Of a stretch of 23,644 nt of DNA, positions 10,087-23,571 are shown piece by piece. Position numbers and translations under genes: made by a program. The notes beneath the pieces were generated by a model that made no database searches, had not been told where the DNA came from, and saw nothing but the letters and a program-made list of their open reading frames with translations. The stretch lies in IMG/VR virus record IMGVR_UViG_3300046000_005666, positions 1-23,644 of that record; one strand, written 5' to 3'. The DNA is from a virus. Positions within the stretch are counted from its first letter, which is position 1, and each line of letters opens with the position of its first letter.

Positions 10087-10308
10087 ATGACTGACCGCCG
10101 AGATCAACCATCAACCGACGTGCTCGCCGCCAAGCTCGTGCACATCAACACTGCCGTCGACAAGGTTCTCGAGCAGACGATCCTCACGAATGGCCGCGTT
10201 GACCGCTTGGAGTCTTGGCGCGACCGCATGACGGGCGCCTGGCTAGTCGTTACGTTTCTTTCGCCGGTTGTCGCTGGCCTCATCGTTGGACTGGTATTGG
10301 GTCGCTGA
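10087..10308 (+). CDS. XhlA-like membrane protein / putative holin
   Basis: The gene encodes 73 residues with a soluble, partly coiled-coil N-terminus ('LVHINTAVDKVLEQTILTNG', 'VDRLESWRDRM') and one predicted transmembrane segment at about residues 50-72. This single-span, N-terminal-helix arrangement matches the XhlA/haemolysin-type membrane proteins found in phage lysis cassettes. It stands directly before the two peptidoglycan hydrolases. The ribosome binding site is weak (AGAAAG near 10077). It may act as a holin or holin partner of the small protein at 11562. Confidence 0.55.
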   Translation: MTDRRDQPSTDVLAAKLVHINTAVDKVLEQTILTNGRVDRLESWRDRMTGAWLVVTFLSPVVAGLIVGLVLGR

Positions 10309-10309
10309 C

Positions 10310-10780
10310 ATGGCCGCTATCCGTAACGGCCAACTACCCGCCTCAGCGCTCAGCAACATTCCTGGCGGCCGCCTCCGTAATGATGGCGCCGCCCGCAGCT
10401 GGCTGGCCATGCGCCAGCTTATAGGGCGCCGCTCTAACATCTGGCTCAGCCCTACTGGACCGAACTCATCTTACCGTAGCCTTGAGGTTCAAAAGCGGTT
10501 CTATTCCGCCTACTTGAACGGCACCGGCAACCTGGCCGCCAAGCCAGGCACCAGTAATCACGGCCTTGGCCACGCGGTTGACCTCCCGACCACCGCCATG
10601 CAAGCCCAGGTACGCCGCTACGGCCACCTCTTTGGCTGGGGGATAGCGGGCGGCAAGCTCGGCTCTGACGCGCCATCTGAGCCGTGGCACGCCACGTATT
10701 ATCAGCACCGCGCGTCCAAGGCGCGCGTCGCCCTTTGGTATGGCCGCTACGTCATCTCTAAGAGGAGGAAGAAGCGATGA
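10310..10780 (+). CDS. M15 family D-alanyl-D-alanine peptidase (endolysin)
   Basis: The gene encodes 156 residues from ATG 10310, two bases after the previous stop; a longer frame from 10268 would overlap the membrane protein and is rejected. The M15 zinc signature is complete: 'SSYRS' at 53-57, 'SNHGLGHAVD' with His84 and Asp91, and 'EPWH' with Glu124 and His127. His84, Asp91 and His127 should bind zinc and Glu124 should act as base. The enzyme would cut peptide cross-links or D-Ala termini in peptidoglycan. The C-terminus is strongly basic (KRRKKR). No signal peptide is present, so release needs the holin. Confidence 0.85.
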   Translation: MAAIRNGQLPASALSNIPGGRLRNDGAARSWLAMRQLIGRRSNIWLSPTGPNSSYRSLEVQKRFYSAYLNGTGNLAAKPGTSNHGLGHAVDLPTTAMQAQVRRYGHLFGWGIAGGKLGSDAPSEPWHATYYQHRASKARVALWYGRYVISKRRKKR

Positions 10781-11547
10781 ACAAAGTCAACCGCGCCCTC
10801 TGGCGCCGCCGCCTGAGCTACCGGCTCAAGCGCGCCTCGTACTGGCGCTCAAGGGGCAACATGCCAAAGGTGAACCACTGGATTGCCTTGTCACGCCAAG
10901 CCAAGGAGAAGCTCGGCATGGTCACGTTGGCGCCAGCCCGCGGTATTGACGTGTCATCGTACAACGGCTCGGTCAACTGGAAGGCGGCCAAGGCGGGCGG
11001 CATCAAGTTTGCGTTCTGTAAGGTCAGTGAGGGCGCCGACTGGGCTGACCCAACCTGGACAACGGAGCGCGTCAAGGCCATGCGCGCCGCGGGCGTCAAG
11101 GTGGGCGTCTACCACTTCCTCCGGCCGCGCCTGGGACGCACTGGCGCTGATGAGATGGCGTTCTTTATGAAGCGCGCTCGAGCCGCTGGCTGGGGCAAGC
11201 CTGGCGACCTAAGACCCGTCATTGACTTTGAGGACACAACCACTGCGACCAGCATGACGATTGAGTACCTGGCGAGCGCGGTTCGTTACCTCAAGAAGGA
11301 GACCGGCAAGGCGCCAATCATCTACACCGGAGGTCCATTCTGGGACAAGGCAACGGGGCGCCTGAGCTACAACTTTGAGTGCCCGCTTTGGCTGGCGGCA
11401 TACGTCAAGAACCCTGACGCTTACCTACCGGCCGCCTGGAAAAAGGACGGCTACTCAATCTGGCAGAACACCGATAAGGGCGCCGTACCTGGCGTCCCTG
11501 GCGACAACGTCGACCAGAACATTGCTAAGCGGCTTCCGCTGCTCTAA
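10777..11547 (+). CDS. GH25 family muramidase (endolysin)
   Basis: The gene encodes 256 residues from ATG 10777, overlapping the previous stop. It has the GH25 signature: 'RGIDVSSYNG' with Asp58, 'FAFCKVSEG', 'GVYHFLRP', and the catalytic 'VIDFED' with Asp150 and Glu152, then 'APIIYTGGPFW' and the closing 'YSIWQNTD'. It would hydrolyse the beta-1,4 bond between N-acetylmuramic acid and N-acetylglucosamine. The first 50 residues form an unusual, very basic extension (RRRLSYRLKRASYWRSRG) with no signal peptide, which may bind the wall or membrane. Together with the M15 peptidase it forms a two-activity lysis system. Confidence 0.9.
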   Translation: MNKVNRALWRRRLSYRLKRASYWRSRGNMPKVNHWIALSRQAKEKLGMVTLAPARGIDVSSYNGSVNWKAAKAGGIKFAFCKVSEGADWADPTWTTERVKAMRAAGVKVGVYHFLRPRLGRTGADEMAFFMKRARAAGWGKPGDLRPVIDFEDTTTATSMTIEYLASAVRYLKKETGKAPIIYTGGPFWDKATGRLSYNFECPLWLAAYVKNPDAYLPAAWKKDGYSIWQNTDKGAVPGVPGDNVDQNIAKRLPLL

Positions 11548-14978: not shown

Positions 14979-15965
14979 ATGAGTTCAGGAATTACAGATA
15001 CAGACAGCATGATGAGCGTGCGGGAGATGCCCTGGCATGGAATGGGCGCCGTACTTGAGGATTACCCGCGGGGAATCGATGACGCCCTCGAGAAGAGCGG
15101 CCTGAGCTGGGAAGTTGAGCAACGCCCGTTGTTCGTTCCGGCTGAGACCACGCTGACGGACGCTGGCGTTGACCAGCGGTTCAGCAGTGTTGAGGGAACC
15201 GTCGCGAACGTCCGTAACGACAACAACCAGGTGCTCGGACTCGTCTCGGAGTCATACGAGATTGTTCAGAACCGCGAAGCGTTCAAGTTCCTTGACGCCA
15301 TTCTCGGAACCGACCTTCTCTTTGAGACGGCTGGCTCCCTGCATGGCGGCCGCAAGGTTTGGGTGCTGGCGCGCCGTCCTGACTTCGTGTCAGTAGCGGG
15401 CGACAAGGTTGCTACTTACGTCTTCGTGGCCAGCAGCCATGACGGCTCCATGAGCGTGACGAGCGCCGTTACGCCCGTCCGGATTGTTTGCGCGAATACG
15501 TTGGGCGCCGCCTTGTACGGCACCACCGCGAACCGCACCTTCCGCATGCGCCATACGAGCGGCATTGGCGACCGCTGGGAAGAGGCTCGCGAGGTGATCG
15601 GCGTCACGGTTGATTACGAATCGCAGTTCGTCGCGCTGGGCGACAGCCTTGGCCAGAAGGCCATCACGGAACGTCAGTTCAGCAGCGTGCTGGACGGCTT
15701 GTTCCAAGAGGATGACAGCCTCGGTAAGAGGGCGCTGGCTAACCGCCAGAGCGCGAAGGCTGACATCATGACCATCTACAAAGGGGAGGGCGCCGCGGGT
15801 GACACAACCGGCAACGCGCCTGGCTCGGCGTGGACGGCTTGGAACGCGGTTGGGGAGTGGAGCGACTGGTACCGCGGTCGCACCAAGAACACTGACCAGA
15901 TGACGCGCTCCTTTGAGGACACGGGTCTGAAGCAGGCAGCGCTGAACGCCCTGGTCGCCGTATAG
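14979..15965 (+). CDS. DUF932 (phage/plasmid-like TIGR03299) protein
   Basis: The gene encodes 328 residues. The opening 'MPWHGMGAVLEDYP', 'GLSWEVEQRPLFV', 'LGLVSESYEIVQNREAFKFLD', and the core 'VTPVRIVCANTLGAAL' followed by 'RMRHT' are the characteristic blocks of the DUF932/TIGR03299 family found widely in phages and plasmids. The biochemical role is unknown; expression in other phages is often early and high. Here it has its own promoter (P2), a perfect ribosome binding site and a strong hairpin after it, so it is probably expressed as a single gene. The length is typical of the family. Confidence 0.85.
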   Translation: MSSGITDTDSMMSVREMPWHGMGAVLEDYPRGIDDALEKSGLSWEVEQRPLFVPAETTLTDAGVDQRFSSVEGTVANVRNDNNQVLGLVSESYEIVQNREAFKFLDAILGTDLLFETAGSLHGGRKVWVLARRPDFVSVAGDKVATYVFVASSHDGSMSVTSAVTPVRIVCANTLGAALYGTTANRTFRMRHTSGIGDRWEEAREVIGVTVDYESQFVALGDSLGQKAITERQFSSVLDGLFQEDDSLGKRALANRQSAKADIMTIYKGEGAAGDTTGNAPGSAWTAWNAVGEWSDWYRGRTKNTDQMTRSFEDTGLKQAALNALVAV

Positions 15966-17363: not shown

Positions 17364-17545
17364 TTACCCTCGCTGACGGAGCATTACTAGTAGGAGCGTT
17401 CGGCCTGATGTGCGCCGTACTGGCGTTCATCGGTAACCTGGCGCTATTGCTCAGGGACGGCCGCCGCCTAGAGAGGCGCGCGCCATCACCACGCCGCGAC
17501 CCGCGCCTCATGCGCGACACGGGAGCGTACCGTCATGAGCGCTGA
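17360..17545 (+). CDS. Small membrane protein, 61 aa
   Basis: The gene starts at an ATGA overlap behind leader copy E. Residues about 4-32 ('LADGALLVGAFGLMCAVLAF', 'IGNLALLL') form one long or two short hydrophobic segments, and the remainder is strongly basic (RDGRRLERRAPSPRRDPRL), giving a clear inside-positive topology. Such small early membrane proteins of phages may affect superinfection or host membrane functions, but the function here is unknown. Confidence 0.58.
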   Translation: MITLADGALLVGAFGLMCAVLAFIGNLALLLRDGRRLERRAPSPRRDPRLMRDTGAYRHER

Positions 17546-18026
17546 GCTAAACCCGCTGGAGCCAAACCGGCCGCTACCGCCAAACCCGCAGACAGGAGAG
17601 CTGCTCGAGCTGGCCACCGCGCCGACCGCTGACCTGGCCGCCTGGCTTGACGCCGTCCGCTGGATGGAAGGGGAGCAGCGCGACGCCAAGCGCCAAGTTC
17701 AGGCGGAGATAATCAAGCGTATGGATACTGACGCCAGCTACACCTTGCGCGAGGGCGACTATGAGTTGAGCGGCGACAGCCCGAAGCCCGTTGAGGTCTT
17801 TGATGTTGAGCCGCTGGCCGCCGACTTGGACGACCTGGTAGCAGAGGGAACCATCAGCGCTGACGCCAGGGCGCGCGTCATCGTTGAGACGGTTGAGCGG
17901 AAGGTGGCGCTACGTGAGATACGCAAGCTCATGAACCTGGGCGGAGTTGTCGCGGGCGTGGTTGAGCGGCACCGCACTGAGGCGCCGCGTGAGCGCCGCG
18001 TTCGTGTCAAACGGAACCGGCCATGA
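17535..18026 (+). CDS. Hypothetical protein, 163 aa
   Basis: The ATG at 17535 overlaps the preceding gene by 11 bases. The N-terminal 30 residues are Pro-rich, followed by a helical, acidic body ('LAAWLDAVRWMEGEQRDAKR', 'AEIIKRMDTDASYTLREGDY') and a basic C-terminus (RRVRVKRNRP). The pattern 'W.d..r..e...rd.k......i...md......' is common in small phage proteins encoded next to recombination genes. I do not recognise a named family. The position between ERF and RusA-like genes suggests a role in DNA metabolism, as inference only. Confidence 0.6.
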   Translation: MSAELNPLEPNRPLPPNPQTGELLELATAPTADLAAWLDAVRWMEGEQRDAKRQVQAEIIKRMDTDASYTLREGDYELSGDSPKPVEVFDVEPLAADLDDLVAEGTISADARARVIVETVERKVALREIRKLMNLGGVVAGVVERHRTEAPRERRVRVKRNRP

Positions 18027-18412
18027 GCGTCGTCATCCACGTAATCACGATTGAGAATGAGACGCCGCCATCACTCAACTCGTACTCGCATGCGCACTGG
18101 CGGAAGTACCACGCCATCAAGAAGTCATGGCAGAACCGCCTGGGCGCTGAGCTGATGGTTATGAGCAAGCGCCTGGCGCCCGCCGCCCAGGTTCACGCCA
18201 CCGCTCAGCTACGCTTTCCCACGCGCCGCCGCCGTGATGAAGGCAACTACCGCACCGCGCTCGAGAAGTCACTCGGGGACGCCCTGGTTGAGGGCGGCTA
18301 CCTGGTTGATGACACGCCAGACCAGTTCACCTTCGGCGCCCTGACCTTTGACGACACGCCAGGCCAACCACGAACAATCCTCCAGCTTCGCTGGACAGAA
18401 AGGAAGCCATGA
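18023..18412 (+). CDS. rusA: RusA-like Holliday junction resolvase
   Basis: The gene encodes 129 residues. 'PPSLNSYSHAHWRKYHAIKKSW' at about 15-36 and 'RRRDEGNYRTALEKSLGDAL' with Asp72, then 'GGYLVDDTPDQF' with Asp96 and Asp97, are the RusA family blocks; acidic residues in these positions bind magnesium in the E. coli enzyme. The enzyme is a dimeric endonuclease that cuts four-way junctions. In phages it processes recombination intermediates or branched DNA before packaging. The length (129 against about 120 in E. coli) is normal. Codon overlaps tie it to the genes on both sides. Confidence 0.82.
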   Translation: MSVVIHVITIENETPPSLNSYSHAHWRKYHAIKKSWQNRLGAELMVMSKRLAPAAQVHATAQLRFPTRRRRDEGNYRTALEKSLGDALVEGGYLVDDTPDQFTFGALTFDDTPGQPRTILQLRWTERKP

Positions 18413-18723
18413 CCAGGACAGATGAGGTTCTAGCGGTTCTACAAGCGGGCGGGAAGGCGGGCGTAACAACCCGTCAGATGCTGGCCAGCACATCGCACCG
18501 TTACAGCGCGTACATTCTGCGGCTCCGTGAGCGCGGCTACGTCATTACGTCAGTCAAGGAGCGCGACGGCTCTTGGCGCTACACGCTGATTCGTGAGCCT
18601 GGCGCCGCCCAGGCGCCGCCGCCGCCCGTGACCACTTTTAGCCAAGAGGAAGCGCCCGCCATCATAGACGGCCAGGAGCAGCTCTTTGATGTGCCGCCGC
18701 ATGAAAACCGCTACGTATCATGA
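18409..18723 (+). CDS. Winged-helix DNA-binding protein
   Basis: The gene encodes 104 residues behind AAAGGAAGCC (18399-18408), a ribosome binding site of the same type as the leader copies. The N-terminal 60 residues ('DEVLAVLQAGGKAGVTTRQM', 'YSAYILRLRERGYVITSV', 'SWRYTLIREP') form a typical winged helix with the wing 'RDGSWRYTL'. This is followed by a Pro-rich, acidic tail ('EEAPAIIDGQEQLFDVPP'). The tail contains 'QEQLFD', which resembles the QLxLF beta-clamp binding motif (inference). It may therefore be a DNA-binding replication or recombination accessory protein. Confidence 0.6.
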   Translation: MTRTDEVLAVLQAGGKAGVTTRQMLASTSHRYSAYILRLRERGYVITSVKERDGSWRYTLIREPGAAQAPPPPVTTFSQEEAPAIIDGQEQLFDVPPHENRYVS

Positions 18724-19328
18724 CGGAAAAGGCACTCAAGAAGAAGCTCGACCGCCAGCGCGTCAAGAACCTAGAGCGCGCGCTCAAGACGGAGCGTACC
18801 GGCCTGCTGGCTATGGGCGTAGCGTTCTGCCGTGAGGGCAACAACCCCGCTGGCCTCTTGGCCAGGCTTGACGCTATGGCCAGCGCCGTCGCGAACGACG
18901 GAAAGGCGCCAGGTGGCCTCCGTGAGTCTATTGTGAACGGGCGCGCCATCGTTGAGCAGGCCATTGCCTTGGAGTCGGGGCGCCCGCAAAAGCTCTTTGA
19001 GCCGGACGTTGGCCATTCTGACCCCGCCCAGGTGGCCGCCCTGGTTGACGCGCCGCCTGAGCAACTGAGCTTGAACGGCTCTGAGGAGCGTCTAACGGAA
19101 CTAAACGCCTTTGAGGCGCAGGTCGAGGCTGGGTTGCTCGAGACGCTTCAGCAGGCGCCCTTGGCTGACGACGAGCTGTATGAGCGCTACCACCTGGTTA
19201 TGGAACGGCCGCGCGTCACGCGCGCCAGCTTGGCCGCCAGGCGCCGCGCCCTGGCTGCGCGCGGCTTCATAGCTCGTATTGAGCACGAAGGTTTGACAAA
19301 GTGGACAACTATAGAGAGGACAGTATGA
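18720..19328 (+). CDS. Hypothetical protein with C-terminal winged-helix-like region
   Basis: The gene encodes 202 residues from an ATGA overlap. The N-terminal 70 residues are basic and helical ('KALKKKLDRQRVKNLERALK'). A helix 'LDAMASAVANDGKAPGGLRE' follows, then an acidic linker and, at about 150-200, 'LADDELYERYHLVMERPRVT', 'ASLAARRRALAARGFIARI' and 'KWTTIERTV', which has the pattern of a winged helix. It may be a DNA-binding or replication accessory protein. No named family was recognised. It is the last gene before the hypermodification set. Confidence 0.55.
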   Translation: MTEKALKKKLDRQRVKNLERALKTERTGLLAMGVAFCREGNNPAGLLARLDAMASAVANDGKAPGGLRESIVNGRAIVEQAIALESGRPQKLFEPDVGHSDPAQVAALVDAPPEQLSLNGSEERLTELNAFEAQVEAGLLETLQQAPLADDELYERYHLVMERPRVTRASLAARRRALAARGFIARIEHEGLTKWTTIERTV

Positions 19329-20002
19329 CTGACGCAAACTCAAGTAGCAAGATTCACCCCAGCCTGAGCGGCTTTGAGACGCTCGCGGCTGACCTAAAGA
19401 CGCACCCTGACAACGCGCGCCGCGGCGACACGAAAGCCATCAGCGAATCGCTGGGTAGGTTTGGCCAGCTACGACCGATAGTGGCCTTGAGTGACGGCAC
19501 TATTGTGGCGGGCAACCATACCTTCCGAGCGGCAACTGAGGTGCTCGGTTGGACGACCGTCGCCGCCATGAAGGTTGACTTGTCGCCCGATGAGGCGCTG
19601 GCCTACCTGCTCGCTGACAACCGCACCGCTGAGCTGGGAACCATGGACGACGCCAAGTTGGCTGAGCTGGTAGAGCGGGCGCTCAACTCGTCCGCTGGCT
19701 TGGCTGGCACCGGCTACTCAGATAGCGACGTGGAAGACCTGGCCGCCCAGCTCGCGGCGCTTGACTCAGACGAGCTGGAATACCAGGCGCCAACCAACCA
19801 GTTCGATGACCGGCACACAAGCGTTGAGACGCCCGCCGCCGACCTGGCTGACCGCAAACCAATGGAGCAGTTCGTGCTCATCTACGACGCCGACAAGGCT
19901 GAGGAACTCAGAGAGGCCATCAAGACCCTCCGCGTCAAGTGGGGAGTCAGTGGGGTGCGCGAAGTTGTCCTCCAAGCCGTTGTTGAGGCGGCCAAAGAAT
20001 GA
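19325..20002 (+). CDS. ParB/sulfiredoxin-like domain protein
   Basis: The gene encodes 225 residues from ATG 19325, which overlaps the previous stop and follows GAGAGGA; the in-frame 19301 start is rejected. The ParB-like N-terminal domain is clear: 'HPDNAR' (27-32), 'SLGRFGQLRPIV' (42-53), 'IVAGNHTFRAA' (60-70) and 'LADNRTAE' near 98-105. In this fold the 'GNHTFR' segment lines a nucleotide-binding or catalytic site. The C-terminal 75 residues contain a helical domain. ParB-like genes recur beside hypermodification enzymes in phages (established by comparative genomics), but their exact role there is unknown. It heads the coupled operon. Confidence 0.8.
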   Translation: MTDANSSSKIHPSLSGFETLAADLKTHPDNARRGDTKAISESLGRFGQLRPIVALSDGTIVAGNHTFRAATEVLGWTTVAAMKVDLSPDEALAYLLADNRTAELGTMDDAKLAELVERALNSSAGLAGTGYSDSDVEDLAAQLAALDSDELEYQAPTNQFDDRHTSVETPAADLADRKPMEQFVLIYDADKAEELREAIKTLRVKWGVSGVREVVLQAVVEAAKE

Positions 20003-21108
20003 GCGCCCAGGCGCCAGCCCTGGCGCCCGTCAGTCAGCAGTCCCGTGACTGGCGGGCGCCGGAGTTCAGGCGCGAAGCGTTCATTGACTTCTACGAGTTT
20101 CACCTACGCCACCGCGCGCACCCTGGCTGCGTCTACTACCTGCTGCCTTACCTGGCTGAGCGGTACGGTTGGACGCCAGAAGAGCGGCTCTGGTTTGCGT
20201 TCTTGAACGGCAATACCCAAAACCCCGTCACGTCGCTACAACTCTTCCGCCACGGCTCAACGCCCGACCAGGCCAGCGAGGTGCTAACGTACTTTGAGGC
20301 CACGCGCGCTGAGTTGGCCTGGGACACCGACCGCCGCTACCACCGCCGCGTCTTTGGCGGCGCCATGATGAGTTACCTTCAGCTCACGGGCGGCGACCAG
20401 GTTGACTTCTGGCAGCGCGCCGCCGCGGGCGGCTGGCCAGCGGTTTGGGCGGCCGCGAACCGCATCAGTTCCTTTGGTCGGTTGTCGGCGTTCTCTTACG
20501 CTGAGTACGTGCGGATAATGAACATCGAGGGCGCTGACTTTGACTGCGATGACCTGCTGCTCTACGACAAAAGCGGCTCGCGTAGCCACCGTAACGGCCT
20601 GGCCGTAGTGGGCGGCCGCGATGACCTTTACTGGCACGCCTCCAACCCTGGCTTCGATGGCACCTACACTCGTGACGAGATGTACTACCTGGTTGACCTG
20701 GGCGCCAGCCTACTTAGGGAGACCGCCAGCCGCGCCCAGGGGGAAGCCTGGGCGCGTGACGTGTCTTACTTCACGCTTGAGTCGGCGCTCTGTACGTACA
20801 AGTCGTGGCACCGCCCAAACCGCCGCTACCCTAACGTCTACAACGACATGCTCTACGACCGGATTAGGAAGGCTGAGCAACGCTTCCCCGACCAAGACTT
20901 CAGCGTCTTCTGGGAGGCGCGCCAGGCCTGCCTGCCTAAGTACCTGCGGCTTGAGGACGAGCCGTACGACCCAGGCTGCCGACCGCAGAAGCAAAACCAC
21001 TACCGCCTCACGGGGGAAGTAATCATGATGGAGCGCGACTACCCTAAGTACGTCAACGGTTTCCGCGACGCGGTTGAGCAGGGACTCTGGGGAAGGCGGC
21101 CATCATGA
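19999..21108 (+). CDS. Amino acid:DNA transferase family protein (AADT / HMUDK-helical / aGPT-PPlase-like)
   Basis: The gene encodes 369 residues from an ATGA overlap. 'FIDFYEFHLRHRAHPGCVYY', 'LPYLAERYGWTPEERLWFAF' and 'NGNTQNP' at 28-76 match the helical DNA glycosylase-like family that includes alpha-glutamyl/putrescinyl thymine enzymes and the helical domain of 5-hmdU DNA kinases. A second block lies at 259-292 ('LESALCTYKSWHRPNRRYPN', 'VYNDMLYDRI'). In phages such as ViI and M6, members join an amino acid to phosphorylated 5-hydroxymethyluracil in DNA with loss of phosphate. The P-loop kinase two genes downstream supplies the activated base. The substrate here is unknown. The family recognition is from memory and needs a profile search. 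Confidence 0.82.
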   Translation: MSAQAPALAPVSQQSRDWRAPEFRREAFIDFYEFHLRHRAHPGCVYYLLPYLAERYGWTPEERLWFAFLNGNTQNPVTSLQLFRHGSTPDQASEVLTYFEATRAELAWDTDRRYHRRVFGGAMMSYLQLTGGDQVDFWQRAAAGGWPAVWAAANRISSFGRLSAFSYAEYVRIMNIEGADFDCDDLLLYDKSGSRSHRNGLAVVGGRDDLYWHASNPGFDGTYTRDEMYYLVDLGASLLRETASRAQGEAWARDVSYFTLESALCTYKSWHRPNRRYPNVYNDMLYDRIRKAEQRFPDQDFSVFWEARQACLPKYLRLEDEPYDPGCRPQKQNHYRLTGEVIMMERDYPKYVNGFRDAVEQGLWGRRPS

Positions 21109-22118
21109 AGGACACAATCTTCACGGAGCCAACCACGCGCCGCCCTCAAGTCAAGTGGGAGGACGACCTAATGACCCTGACGCCGGTTCAGCGCCTGGGC
21201 GACACCTGGTACAAGCGGGAGGACTACTTTGCGCCGCTTGGCTACGGCGGGATCAACGGCGCCAAGCTGCGCCAGCTCATCGGCCTCTTGGCGCCGCAAG
21301 TTGAGGCGCAGGGCGTCATCACGGGCTGCTCAGTTCTGTCACCCCAGGCCAGTATGACAGCGCTCGTCGCGCTCCACTATGAGCTGCCGGTTACAATCGT
21401 CCTGGGCGCCACCTCAGCGGCCACCGCCACGCGCCACGAGAACATTGCTATAGCTGACGCCGCTGGCGCGAGCTTCCATTACGCGCCGGTCGCTTACAAC
21501 CCTGCCCTGCAGCGGGCGGTCAACGACTTACTGCTCGAGCCGGAGTACCGCGGCTACTACAAACTCGCGTACGCCATCACGGCTCCTGATGACGCCGCCG
21601 ATGACGCCATCGTGGCCTTCCATGAGCTGGGCGCCAACCAGGTCGCCAACTTCCCAGCGGGCGCCCGCACCCTAGTCATGGCGGCTGGCTCATGCAACTC
21701 ATCAGTCAGCGTTCTTTATGGCCTGGCCAGGGCGCGGCCAGCCAACCTAGAGCGCGTGATTCTTGTGGCCGTAGGACCGAGCCGCGTAGCGTGGATGGCT
21801 GACCGCTTTGAGGCCATTCGTCGCGCTACTGGCGTGGACACCGCCGCTTACCTTTCTACCCTCCAGGTTGAGCGGCATGACCTCCATGGGACTGGCTTCG
21901 CCGCCTACGGTGACCGCATGCCCTGGCGGGAGGCGGGCATTAGGTTCCACCCCACCTATGAGGGCAAGATGATGCGTTACCTTAGAGGCGCCCAGGCGGC
22001 CGAGTACGTTGGCGACGACGCCCTCTTCTGGATCGTTGGCTCAGAGCCTAAGCGCTCAGCCATGCTGGACGCCTTCATGCTTGACGGAATACCAATCAAA
22101 GGGGAAGTGAAACTATGA
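21105..22118 (+). CDS. Fold-type II PLP-dependent enzyme (ACC deaminase / D-cysteine desulfhydrase-like)
   Basis: The gene encodes 337 residues from an ATGA overlap. The active-site lysine is probably Lys54 in 'GGINGAKLRQLIGLL', which corresponds to the 'GGNK.RKLE' motif of ACC deaminase and D-cysteine desulfhydrase. 'GCSVLSPQASMTALVALHYE' follows where those enzymes have 'QSNHARQ'. The phosphate-binding loop is 'AAGSCNSSVS' (193-202). 'WYKREDYFAPLGYG' is the family's substrate-side motif. In the proposed pathway it could tailor the amino acid adduct or make a precursor such as dehydroalanine by elimination. The reported tailoring enzymes include PLP-dependent decarboxylases; this sequence instead has fold-type II motifs, so its chemistry may be new. 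Confidence 0.8.
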   Translation: MKDTIFTEPTTRRPQVKWEDDLMTLTPVQRLGDTWYKREDYFAPLGYGGINGAKLRQLIGLLAPQVEAQGVITGCSVLSPQASMTALVALHYELPVTIVLGATSAATATRHENIAIADAAGASFHYAPVAYNPALQRAVNDLLLEPEYRGYYKLAYAITAPDDAADDAIVAFHELGANQVANFPAGARTLVMAAGSCNSSVSVLYGLARARPANLERVILVAVGPSRVAWMADRFEAIRRATGVDTAAYLSTLQVERHDLHGTGFAAYGDRMPWREAGIRFHPTYEGKMMRYLRGAQAAEYVGDDALFWIVGSEPKRSAMLDAFMLDGIPIKGEVKL

Positions 22119-22666
22119 GGATGCTTTACGTGATAGGGGCGCCAGGCTCAGGGAAGACAACCGCGCTGCGCCACGTGCTCGAGCCGTTCAGCAAGGAGGT
22201 GGTCAACCTGCCGCCGAAGGTGACGTTCTATGAGGCTGGCGCGCTCGTACAGATTGGCTACGACCGCGGCACCTTTAGCGGGACTGACACCCTGGCCATG
22301 AACGCCCAGCCAAGAATCCTCCAGGCGCTTGATGACTACCGCTGGGACAACGTCGTCGCCGAGGGCGACCGGCTGGCCAACGTAGGCTTCTTTGAGGGCG
22401 TGCGCGCCATCGGTTACGACTTGACCGTGGCCTACATGGACACGCCGCTCGCGATGGCCGCTGAGCGCCGCGAGATGCGCGGCTCTGACCAGAACCAGTC
22501 GTGGGTCAACGGTCGCATTACCAAGGCTCACCGCTTGGCAGAGCGCTGCGCAACCGTTACCCTAGATGGCAAGCCGTGGTCAGACGTTGTCGCGCGGCAG
22601 TTAGCTTTACAGCCAGTATTCAACCAGGCCGCCAACGTCGCGGCCGCAAGACAGGAGACGCAATGA
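22115..22666 (+). CDS. P-loop kinase, probable 5-hydroxymethylpyrimidine DNA kinase
   Basis: The gene encodes 183 residues from an ATGA overlap. The Walker A motif 'GAPGSGKTT' lies at 8-16 (Lys14, Thr15). A Walker B-like or lid region follows: 'WDNVVAEGDRLANVGFFEGV', 'YDLTVAYMDTPLAMAAERRE' and 'SWVNGRITKAHRL', typical of small kinases of the deoxynucleoside/adenylate-kinase class. In phage hypermodification operons the matching kinase phosphorylates 5-hydroxymethyluracil already in DNA, activating it for displacement. The size fits that family. A nucleotide kinase acting on free nucleotides is the alternative; the context supports the DNA-kinase reading. Confidence 0.78.
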   Translation: MRMLYVIGAPGSGKTTALRHVLEPFSKEVVNLPPKVTFYEAGALVQIGYDRGTFSGTDTLAMNAQPRILQALDDYRWDNVVAEGDRLANVGFFEGVRAIGYDLTVAYMDTPLAMAAERREMRGSDQNQSWVNGRITKAHRLAERCATVTLDGKPWSDVVARQLALQPVFNQAANVAAARQETQ

Positions 22667-23571
22667 GACTCACGAAGGTAAAGTTGATGACCAAACTCAG
22701 CGACGCTGAGGTGCTCGAGATGGAAGGTAAGATGGTGCGCGATGAAGACTACGACGTGCTGCTCACGGGCGCCAGCTACGTGGTCAAGCCTGGCCTCAGT
22801 AAGGAGCCGCTCTGCGTCTACTTGCCTGGCGCCGTCAAGGCTGAGTGCGACGCCGCCTACCCGTTCCTGACTAAGATCAGAGACAAGACTGACAACCGCG
22901 GCGCTGCCAGTGGAACCCAGCGCGTCCGCACGACCGCCAAGATCACCCGCGCCAAGCGCGTGGCCAGCTCCATTCTTGGCTCTATGGATCCGCAGGGCGG
23001 CCGCTGGCCGTACTGCCGCTTGACTGCGTACACCGCCAGGGAAGCTACAGATTGGCAGGAGATGCGGCCGCTGTTCCAGGCCATCGCGAAGCGCTTTGAG
23101 GAGCACGTTCCGCACCGTTACGCCAACCAGGTTGAGGAGTGCCGCAAGACTGACCCTGACTGGGTAATCCCAGGGACGCCGTTCACAACCATCACCGTAA
23201 ACAACACTTACCCGACCGGCATCCATACCGACAAGGGCGACCTGGACAGCGGCTTCTCAACGCTTGTCTCTATCCACCGCGGCGAGTGGGACGGCGCCCG
23301 AATCGTCTTCCCGCAATACCGCGTAGCGGCCGACCTGGGCGACGGCGACCTCATCATGATGGACGCCCACGAGTTCCACGGGAACACCATCATCATCTGT
23401 AAGTGCGGCCACAACCTAGATGAGGCCTGCCCTGATTGCGGCGCTGAACGGATCAGCGTCGTGTCGTACTTCAGAACCCGCATGACAAACTGCGGCAGCA
23501 TGACGGACGAACAGCAGCGCGCCCTAGACGCCGCTGAAGCCAACAACGCCGGTCTCCTTGACGCCGACTGA
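22663..23571 (+). CDS. TET/JBP-like 2-oxoglutarate/Fe(II) dioxygenase
   Basis: The gene encodes 302 residues from ATG 22663, in an ATGA overlap; a longer frame from 22501 lies in the kinase gene and is rejected. The iron site is visible: 'GIHTDKGD' with His188 and Asp190, and 'DAHEFHGN' with His236 or, more likely, His239. Arg271 or Arg273 in 'SYFRTRM' would bind 2-oxoglutarate. The core layout fits the TET/JBP family, which oxidises the methyl group of thymine or 5-methylcytosine in DNA. Between the last iron ligand and the arginine sits an insert with four cysteines (Cys246, Cys248, Cys256, Cys259) that may bind zinc. The N-terminal 110 residues are not recognised. Its product would feed the kinase. 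Confidence 0.78.
   Translation: MRLTKVKLMTKLSDAEVLEMEGKMVRDEDYDVLLTGASYVVKPGLSKEPLCVYLPGAVKAECDAAYPFLTKIRDKTDNRGAASGTQRVRTTAKITRAKRVASSILGSMDPQGGRWPYCRLTAYTAREATDWQEMRPLFQAIAKRFEEHVPHRYANQVEECRKTDPDWVIPGTPFTTITVNNTYPTGIHTDKGDLDSGFSTLVSIHRGEWDGARIVFPQYRVAADLGDGDLIMMDAHEFHGNTIIICKCGHNLDEACPDCGAERISVVSYFRTRMTNCGSMTDEQQRALDAAEANNAGLLDAD

Follow-up and report, generated by a model that had tools for sequence, protein, structure and literature searches.

A phage operon joining TET/JBP dioxygenase and amino acid:DNA transferase genes as a probable DNA base hypermodification pathway

The IMG/VR virus record IMGVR_UViG_3300046000_005666, analysed here as a whole (23,644 bases; 'the window'), ends in five overlapping genes for a ParB-like protein, an amino acid:DNA transferase (AADT), a fold-type II pyridoxal phosphate (PLP) enzyme, a P-loop kinase and a TET/JBP 2-oxoglutarate–Fe(II) dioxygenase. 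Do these genes make up one pathway of DNA base hypermodification, as a first-pass annotation of the bare sequence had proposed, and on which base would it act? We consider it probable that they form a post-replicative hypermodification operon, most likely directed at thymine, with TET, kinase, AADT and PLP enzyme acting in that order.

Five overlapping genes and their products

The open reading frames (ORFs) at 19325–23571 all lie on the plus strand and every junction between them is a 4-base ATGA overlap; coordinates, strand and each junction were verified against the first-pass annotation (Table 1). The chain of ATGA overlaps continues upstream through four further genes, back to 17535, and this, with the shared strand, makes a single transcript likely. 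All five identities proposed earlier were borne out by Pfam, PHROGs, profiles, predicted folds and motifs, as follows.

The AADT matched Pfam ADDT (2.3e-9; 37.7 bits against a cut-off of 26.2), as did 37 of 41 AADT relatives, and phrog_3271 (1e-75). Its AlphaFold model (predicted local distance difference test score, pLDDT, 94.6) found its best fold match in PUGT (8z2m, PaMx11 gp46; Z 18.5 over 258 residues, 3.3 Å), the solved phage 5-phosphomethyl-2'-deoxyuridine glycinyltransferase. Glycosylases of the OGG/EndoIII type came next, the 8-oxoguanine glycosylases scoring Z 9.7 or less. G160, E261 and C265 are common to all eleven aligned AADTs, PUGT included, and of these E261 and C265 may be catalytic; R112-R113 is shared with PUGT and not with aGPT-Pplase1-type proteins. 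The AADT profile had no match among PDB sequences, and the VIA-align and Foldseek lists contained no other family for this protein, which does not exclude one. By Pfam and by modelled fold it falls inside the AADT family, and the dioxygenase falls inside TET/JBP by Pfam, motifs and profile; the first-pass annotation had made its reading depend on both placements. The AADT is predicted to swap a base phosphate for an amino acid.

The dioxygenase matched Pfam Tet_JBP (7e-18), and its iron triad (H188-x-D190 and H239) and 2-oxoglutarate-binding arginine (R263) are invariant in 19 sequences. Its profile matched human TET2 and the divergent TETs of actinophages, and the enzyme is predicted to hydroxylate a base methyl in DNA. 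The kinase, with a Pfam Ploopntkinase3 match of 6e-20, carries the P-loop GAPGSGKTT, in which G8, P10, G13 and K14 are invariant in 39 sequences; its profile matched the SN1_021 kinase of the M6-like phage SN1 with 95.5% probability, consistent with a predicted 5-hydroxymethyl-base DNA kinase. The ParB-like protein matched phrog_723 (ParB-like; 6e-34) and, below threshold, Pfam ParB_N (0.002). It also matched phrog_498 (3e-25), a family of phage DNA methyltransferases, at family positions 41–181 of 633, near the N-terminal end; this hints at a possible DNA-targeting partner.

Although Pfam held no match for the PLP enzyme, its family profile matched ACC deaminase (3e-8) and D-cysteine desulfhydrase, and its model (pLDDT 94.3) has the TrpB-like fold type II, with Z 23 against 1j0a/D-Cys desulfhydrase. 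K54, invariant in 33 sequences, aligns with the lysine of the GNKxRKL motif, the Schiff-base lysine position. The enzyme is 33% identical over its full length to ORF169 of Dickeya phage PP35, which is named among the 5-hydroxymethyl-2'-deoxyuridine (hmdU) transformation genes conserved in Ackermannviridae (PMC6336734), and 346 phage records, chiefly relatives of ViI, carry such an enzyme. The first-pass annotation was right about the identity of this protein, whose family is already tied to ViI-like thymidine hypermodification.

Linkage and gene content in related phages

Single-sequence searches with the TET or PLP protein returned no relatives, presumably as the peptide patterns were too specific. 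The AADT query did find relatives and, with them, TET and PLP homologues. We assembled 80 viral loci with an AADT relative and added mycobacteriophage Magpie and Rhodococcus phage Tonitrus, giving 82 (L numbers below are our locus handles); counts of linkage take in some near-identical records. A TET/JBP gene lies near the AADT gene in 65 of the 82 loci and all five genes occur in 31, so that their association is not due to chance. A parB-like gene is present in 44 of the loci. The commonest order is TET-AADT-PLP-kinase, the order seen in the window (AADT-PLP-kinase-TET) recurring in four loci, and most close neighbours touch or overlap (145 of 197 pairs). Such constant company despite varied order indicates a functional module. 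One locus (L025) encodes a single 662-residue protein with an N-terminal TET/JBP and a C-terminal AADT part, a natural fusion.

The TETs fall into two sub-types. The divergent one matched Pfam Tet_JBP in 19 of 19 cases tested, can be aligned by profile to the type in the window and is found in 90 phage records, mainly of actinophages; loci such as L002–L019 have a divergent TET/JBP as their upstream gene.

In pathways of the M6/ViI type the starting hmdU is supplied by a thymidylate synthase-family enzyme, deoxyuridine monophosphate (dUMP) hydroxymethylase (PMC6336734, PMC9476957). Enzymes homologous to the M6-type SN1_017 occurred in the TET-less L053, L056, L070 and L079/L080, and in none of the TET-bearing records searched, which include records of 40–88 kb; the window record lacks one as well, which proves little as the record is itself a fragment. 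Among de-duplicated AADT lineages the hydroxymethylase was present in 0 of 42 with TET and 4 of 8 without it (Fisher p 3e-4, a value weakened by shared ancestry and record length). The hydroxymethylase-bearing loci are scattered in the AADT tree, where L070, with the hydroxymethylase, is sister to L068, with TET (support 100/87). These hydroxymethylases have Asn at the equivalent of Escherichia coli thymidylate synthase N177, a position discussed in PMC8670742, and are of the dUMP-reading type; the gene in L053 contains one in-frame TGA and has provisional boundaries.

The choice between 5-methylcytosine (5mC) and thymine as the substrate of the window TET can be argued from gene content. A pathway from 5mC would need a C5-methyltransferase, unless the host supplies 5mC. 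Matches to such enzymes were present in 3 of 77 records, namely L060 (1e-60), L006 (27.9 bits, partial) and the TET-less L056, and none was found in the window record, a fragment. The mutual exclusion of TET and hydroxymethylase and the near-absence of C5-methyltransferases argue for, but do not prove, a pathway that begins with the hydroxylation of thymine in DNA, and most likely TET would replace the nucleotide-level hydroxymethylase in this way. The first-pass annotation had proposed oxidation in DNA over nucleotide-level hmdU, and the confinement of dUMP-hydroxymethylase homologues to TET-less relatives lends that proposal new support.

The proposed pathway and its rivals

In the pathway that we propose, TET would act on thymine in DNA, hydroxylating its 5-methyl group to give 5-hydroxymethyluracil (hmU), whose hydroxyl the P-loop kinase would phosphorylate; the AADT would then replace the phosphate of phospho-hmU with an amino acid, yielding aminoacyl-T. 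The attached amino acid would offer its free alpha-amine to the PLP enzyme for Schiff-base formation and would most likely then be decarboxylated by it, so that an aminoalkyl group remains. Recruitment of the enzymes to DNA may involve the ParB-like protein, and the modified base would shield phage DNA from host nucleases. Homology to the ViI-type PLP enzyme leads us to suggest, tentatively, 5-(2-aminoethoxy)methyl-2'-deoxyuridine or a similar aminoalkyl thymine as the likeliest single product. For the broader proposition, that a line ending in a new aminoalkyl thymine starts from thymine of finished DNA, hydroxylated in the manner of JBP, and not from hmdUTP, and that TET and dUMP hydroxymethylase are interchangeable first steps across phages, we judge the chances to be evenly balanced.

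Several observations weigh against this pathway. Among fold-type II PLP enzymes, elimination, deamination and replacement are commoner than decarboxylation. Direct profile comparison of the AADT with SN1_024, the M6-type aGPT-Pplase2, gave 1% probability and no link, so that its modelled fold and its Pfam match are what connect it with the M6-type enzymes. In L051, a 94 kb record with AADT, PLP enzyme and kinase, neither TET nor a hydroxymethylase of the thymidylate synthase type was found, and phages may therefore have a third way of obtaining the hydroxymethyl base. The strong C5-methyltransferase of L060 is encoded downstream of TET-AADT-kinase genes, and this group may modify cytosine instead. 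Finally, in the account that PMC12730594 gives, citing Burke et al. 2021, phage TETs of proven activity act on 5mC and sit in clusters with C5-methyltransferases and glycosyltransferases.

The last two points are those that speak for cytosine as the base, in which case TET would turn host- or phage-made 5mC in DNA into 5-hydroxymethylcytosine, to be phosphorylated, aminoacylated and trimmed. We think this improbable for the window, given the scarcity of C5-methyltransferases described above, the appearance of a dUMP-reading-type hydroxymethylase in place of a missing TET, and the activity of the AADT's nearest solved relative on 5-phosphomethyl-dU. Far less probable is a chance neighbourhood, or a set of genes serving nucleotide salvage, repair (as a glycosylase) or the terminase. 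GenBank labels on homologues ('adenylate kinase', 'terminase small subunit', 'DNA glycosylase', 'queuine tRNA-ribosyltransferase') and the glycosylase fold common to AADTs and glycosylases would suit such roles; yet the linkage recurs in differing orders, the TET–AADT fusion exists, and the AADT model is much closer in fold to PUGT than to glycosylases (Z 18.5 versus 9.7). On linkage and fold we reject the public labels as a guide to function, whether repair glycosylase, adenylate kinase or terminase small subunit.

A narrower alternative leaves DNA modification in place and alters its end product, the PLP enzyme acting on the attached amino acid by deamination, elimination or exchange of a side chain and not by decarboxylation. 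It is possible, though we lean against it. The nearest solved relatives, D-cysteine desulfhydrase and ACC deaminase, point that way, as do the 'threonine ammonia lyase' labels of some relatives. Lee et al. 2022 is said to assign a PLP-dependent decarboxylation to DNA-bound amino acids. The direct homologue of the window enzyme belongs to a ViI-like pathway, and ViI DNA contains 5-(2-aminoethoxy)methyl-dU (PMC6449724); with serine as the source, this product would have lost its carboxyl and retained its amine. Another relative of the window enzyme is SN1_023, a PLP enzyme of the M6-like kind. The ViI-type homologue, the ViI product base and the reported assignment are the grounds on which we favour decarboxylation as the most likely way in which the PLP enzyme would tailor the DNA-bound amino acid.

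Known systems, public annotations and neighbouring genes

The kind of system is already known: the window probably holds one member of a version of the M6/ViI pathway that TET would start, with a ViI-type PLP enzyme added. The first-pass annotation could match the exact gene set to no characterised phage; the set is not unique, given the 31 loci with all five genes and a similar published set in Tonitrus. Iyer and colleagues are said to have made a prediction on this kind of system in 2013. Our literature search found no published biochemistry for a TET-started version.

The ViI-like Ackermannviridae (Salmonella phage ViI, Dickeya phage PP35) likewise have an AADT (PP35 ORF187, 24% identical to that of the window), a P-loop kinase and a homologous PLP enzyme. 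They differ in having a dUMP hydroxymethylase and two each of the kinase and the AADT, dispersed over the genome (PMC6336734, PMC10458263), whereas the window has a TET/JBP gene instead, with one kinase and one AADT in a single operon. Phages of the M6/PaMx11 type (Pseudomonas phages M6 and PaMx11, Sphaerotilus phage SN1) share the PUGT-fold AADT, the P-loop kinase (95.5%) and a related PLP enzyme (96.8% probability), but have a pyrimidine hydroxymethylase, a radical SAM enzyme and aGPT-Pplase1, and no TET (PMC9476957).

For Tonitrus, described in 2025, the authors propose thymidine hypermodification by a five-gene set of ParB, Tet-like, aGPT-Pplase2, kinase and hypothetical protein (PMC11955845). 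This phage resembles the window in the single block of ParB-like, Tet-like J-binding protein, aGPT-Pplase2 and kinase genes, and differs in its divergent AADT and in the PLP enzyme, for which its first 12 kb yielded no homologue. Magpie genes 1–4 encode, in order, ParB, TET/JBP, an AADT 51% identical to that of the window, and the kinase; in Magpie-type mycobacteriophages the PLP enzyme was not found beside these genes, which carry the annotations hypothetical, oxidoreductase, DNA glycosylase or adenylate kinase. Gp2 of mycobacteriophage Cooper serves as a phage TET/JBP reference in PMC12730594. The phage TET/5mC clusters described there (citing Burke et al. 2021) similarly have a TET/JBP enzyme at the beginning of a multi-enzyme base modification, which proceeds with C5-methyltransferases and glycosyltransferases in those clusters, in contrast to the amino-acid chemistry of the window, where no C5-methyltransferase was seen.

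If the proposed pathway is true, phages have two exchangeable routes to a hydroxymethyl handle for amino acids, one at the nucleotide level and one through TET/JBP on DNA; bacterial viruses would gain a thymine activity known so far from kinetoplastid JBP proteins, and modification could be site-chosen rather than global. Many actinophage isolates carry the module, often misnamed, which makes the proposal directly testable, and the enzymes are possible tools for putting amino acids on DNA. In mycobacteriophages and other actinophages the TET/JBP genes are labelled 'queuine tRNA-ribosyltransferase', 'DpdA-like' or 'oxidoreductase'; the AADTs appear as 'DNA glycosylase' or 'nucleotide pyrophosphohydrolase', and the kinases as 'adenylate kinase' or 'terminase small subunit'.

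Table 1 Positions of the operon genes, their upstream neighbours and features of related loci (window coordinates unless a locus is given)
Feature	Position	Strand	Evidence
ParB-like domain protein, 225 aa	19325..20002	+	phrog_723, phrog_498, sub-threshold Pfam ParB_N
AADT, 369 aa	19999..21108	+	Pfam ADDT, phrog_3271, PUGT fold (model)
Fold-type II PLP enzyme, 337 aa	21105..22118	+	Family profile, predicted fold, PP35 ORF169 homology
P-loop kinase, 183 aa	22115..22666	+	Pfam Ploopntkinase3, P-loop motif
TET/JBP 2-oxoglutarate–Fe(II) dioxygenase, 302 aa	22663..23571	+	Pfam Tet_JBP, motifs, profile
Four upstream chain genes: 163 aa unknown; RusA-like; winged-helix; 202 aa unknown	17535..19328	+	Coordinates, ATGA junctions, family matches
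DUF932 protein	14979-15965		Match 1.5e-48
Two lysin genes	10268-11547		
Magpie gp2 (TET/JBP)	L082:827-1759		
Magpie gp3 (AADT)	L082:1852-2826		
Magpie gp4 (kinase)	L082:2863-3462		
TET/JBP–AADT fusion	L025:3801-5789		
C5-methyltransferase	L060, contig position 4468-5475		1e-60
Split module	L026:3171-11010		
HTVC112P gene set	L086:5378-7600		

Other tailoring candidates are a GNAT acetyltransferase in L068 and an N4/N6 methyltransferase in L026. In the latter locus about 4 kb of other genes split the module between kinase and AADT, and the N4/N6 DNA methyltransferase sits between AADT and PLP enzyme. In Pelagibacter phage HTVC112P the genes for a ParB-like protein, TET/JBP and an FkbM-type methyltransferase, a further tailoring candidate, adjoin, with no AADT annotated beside them; this set is perhaps another TET-started modification.

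The window record is probably a fragment, its last 73 bases following the TET stop codon. The four genes immediately upstream are probably co-transcribed with the operon, which does not imply that they belong to the pathway. On the 5' side of the operon lie genes for a siphovirus tail (tail tube, Dit), for lysins, for an ERF recombinase and, far from the operon, for a DUF932 protein. The two lysin genes, adjacent and overlapping, encode a VanY-type peptidase and a glycosyl hydrolase family 25 lysozyme.

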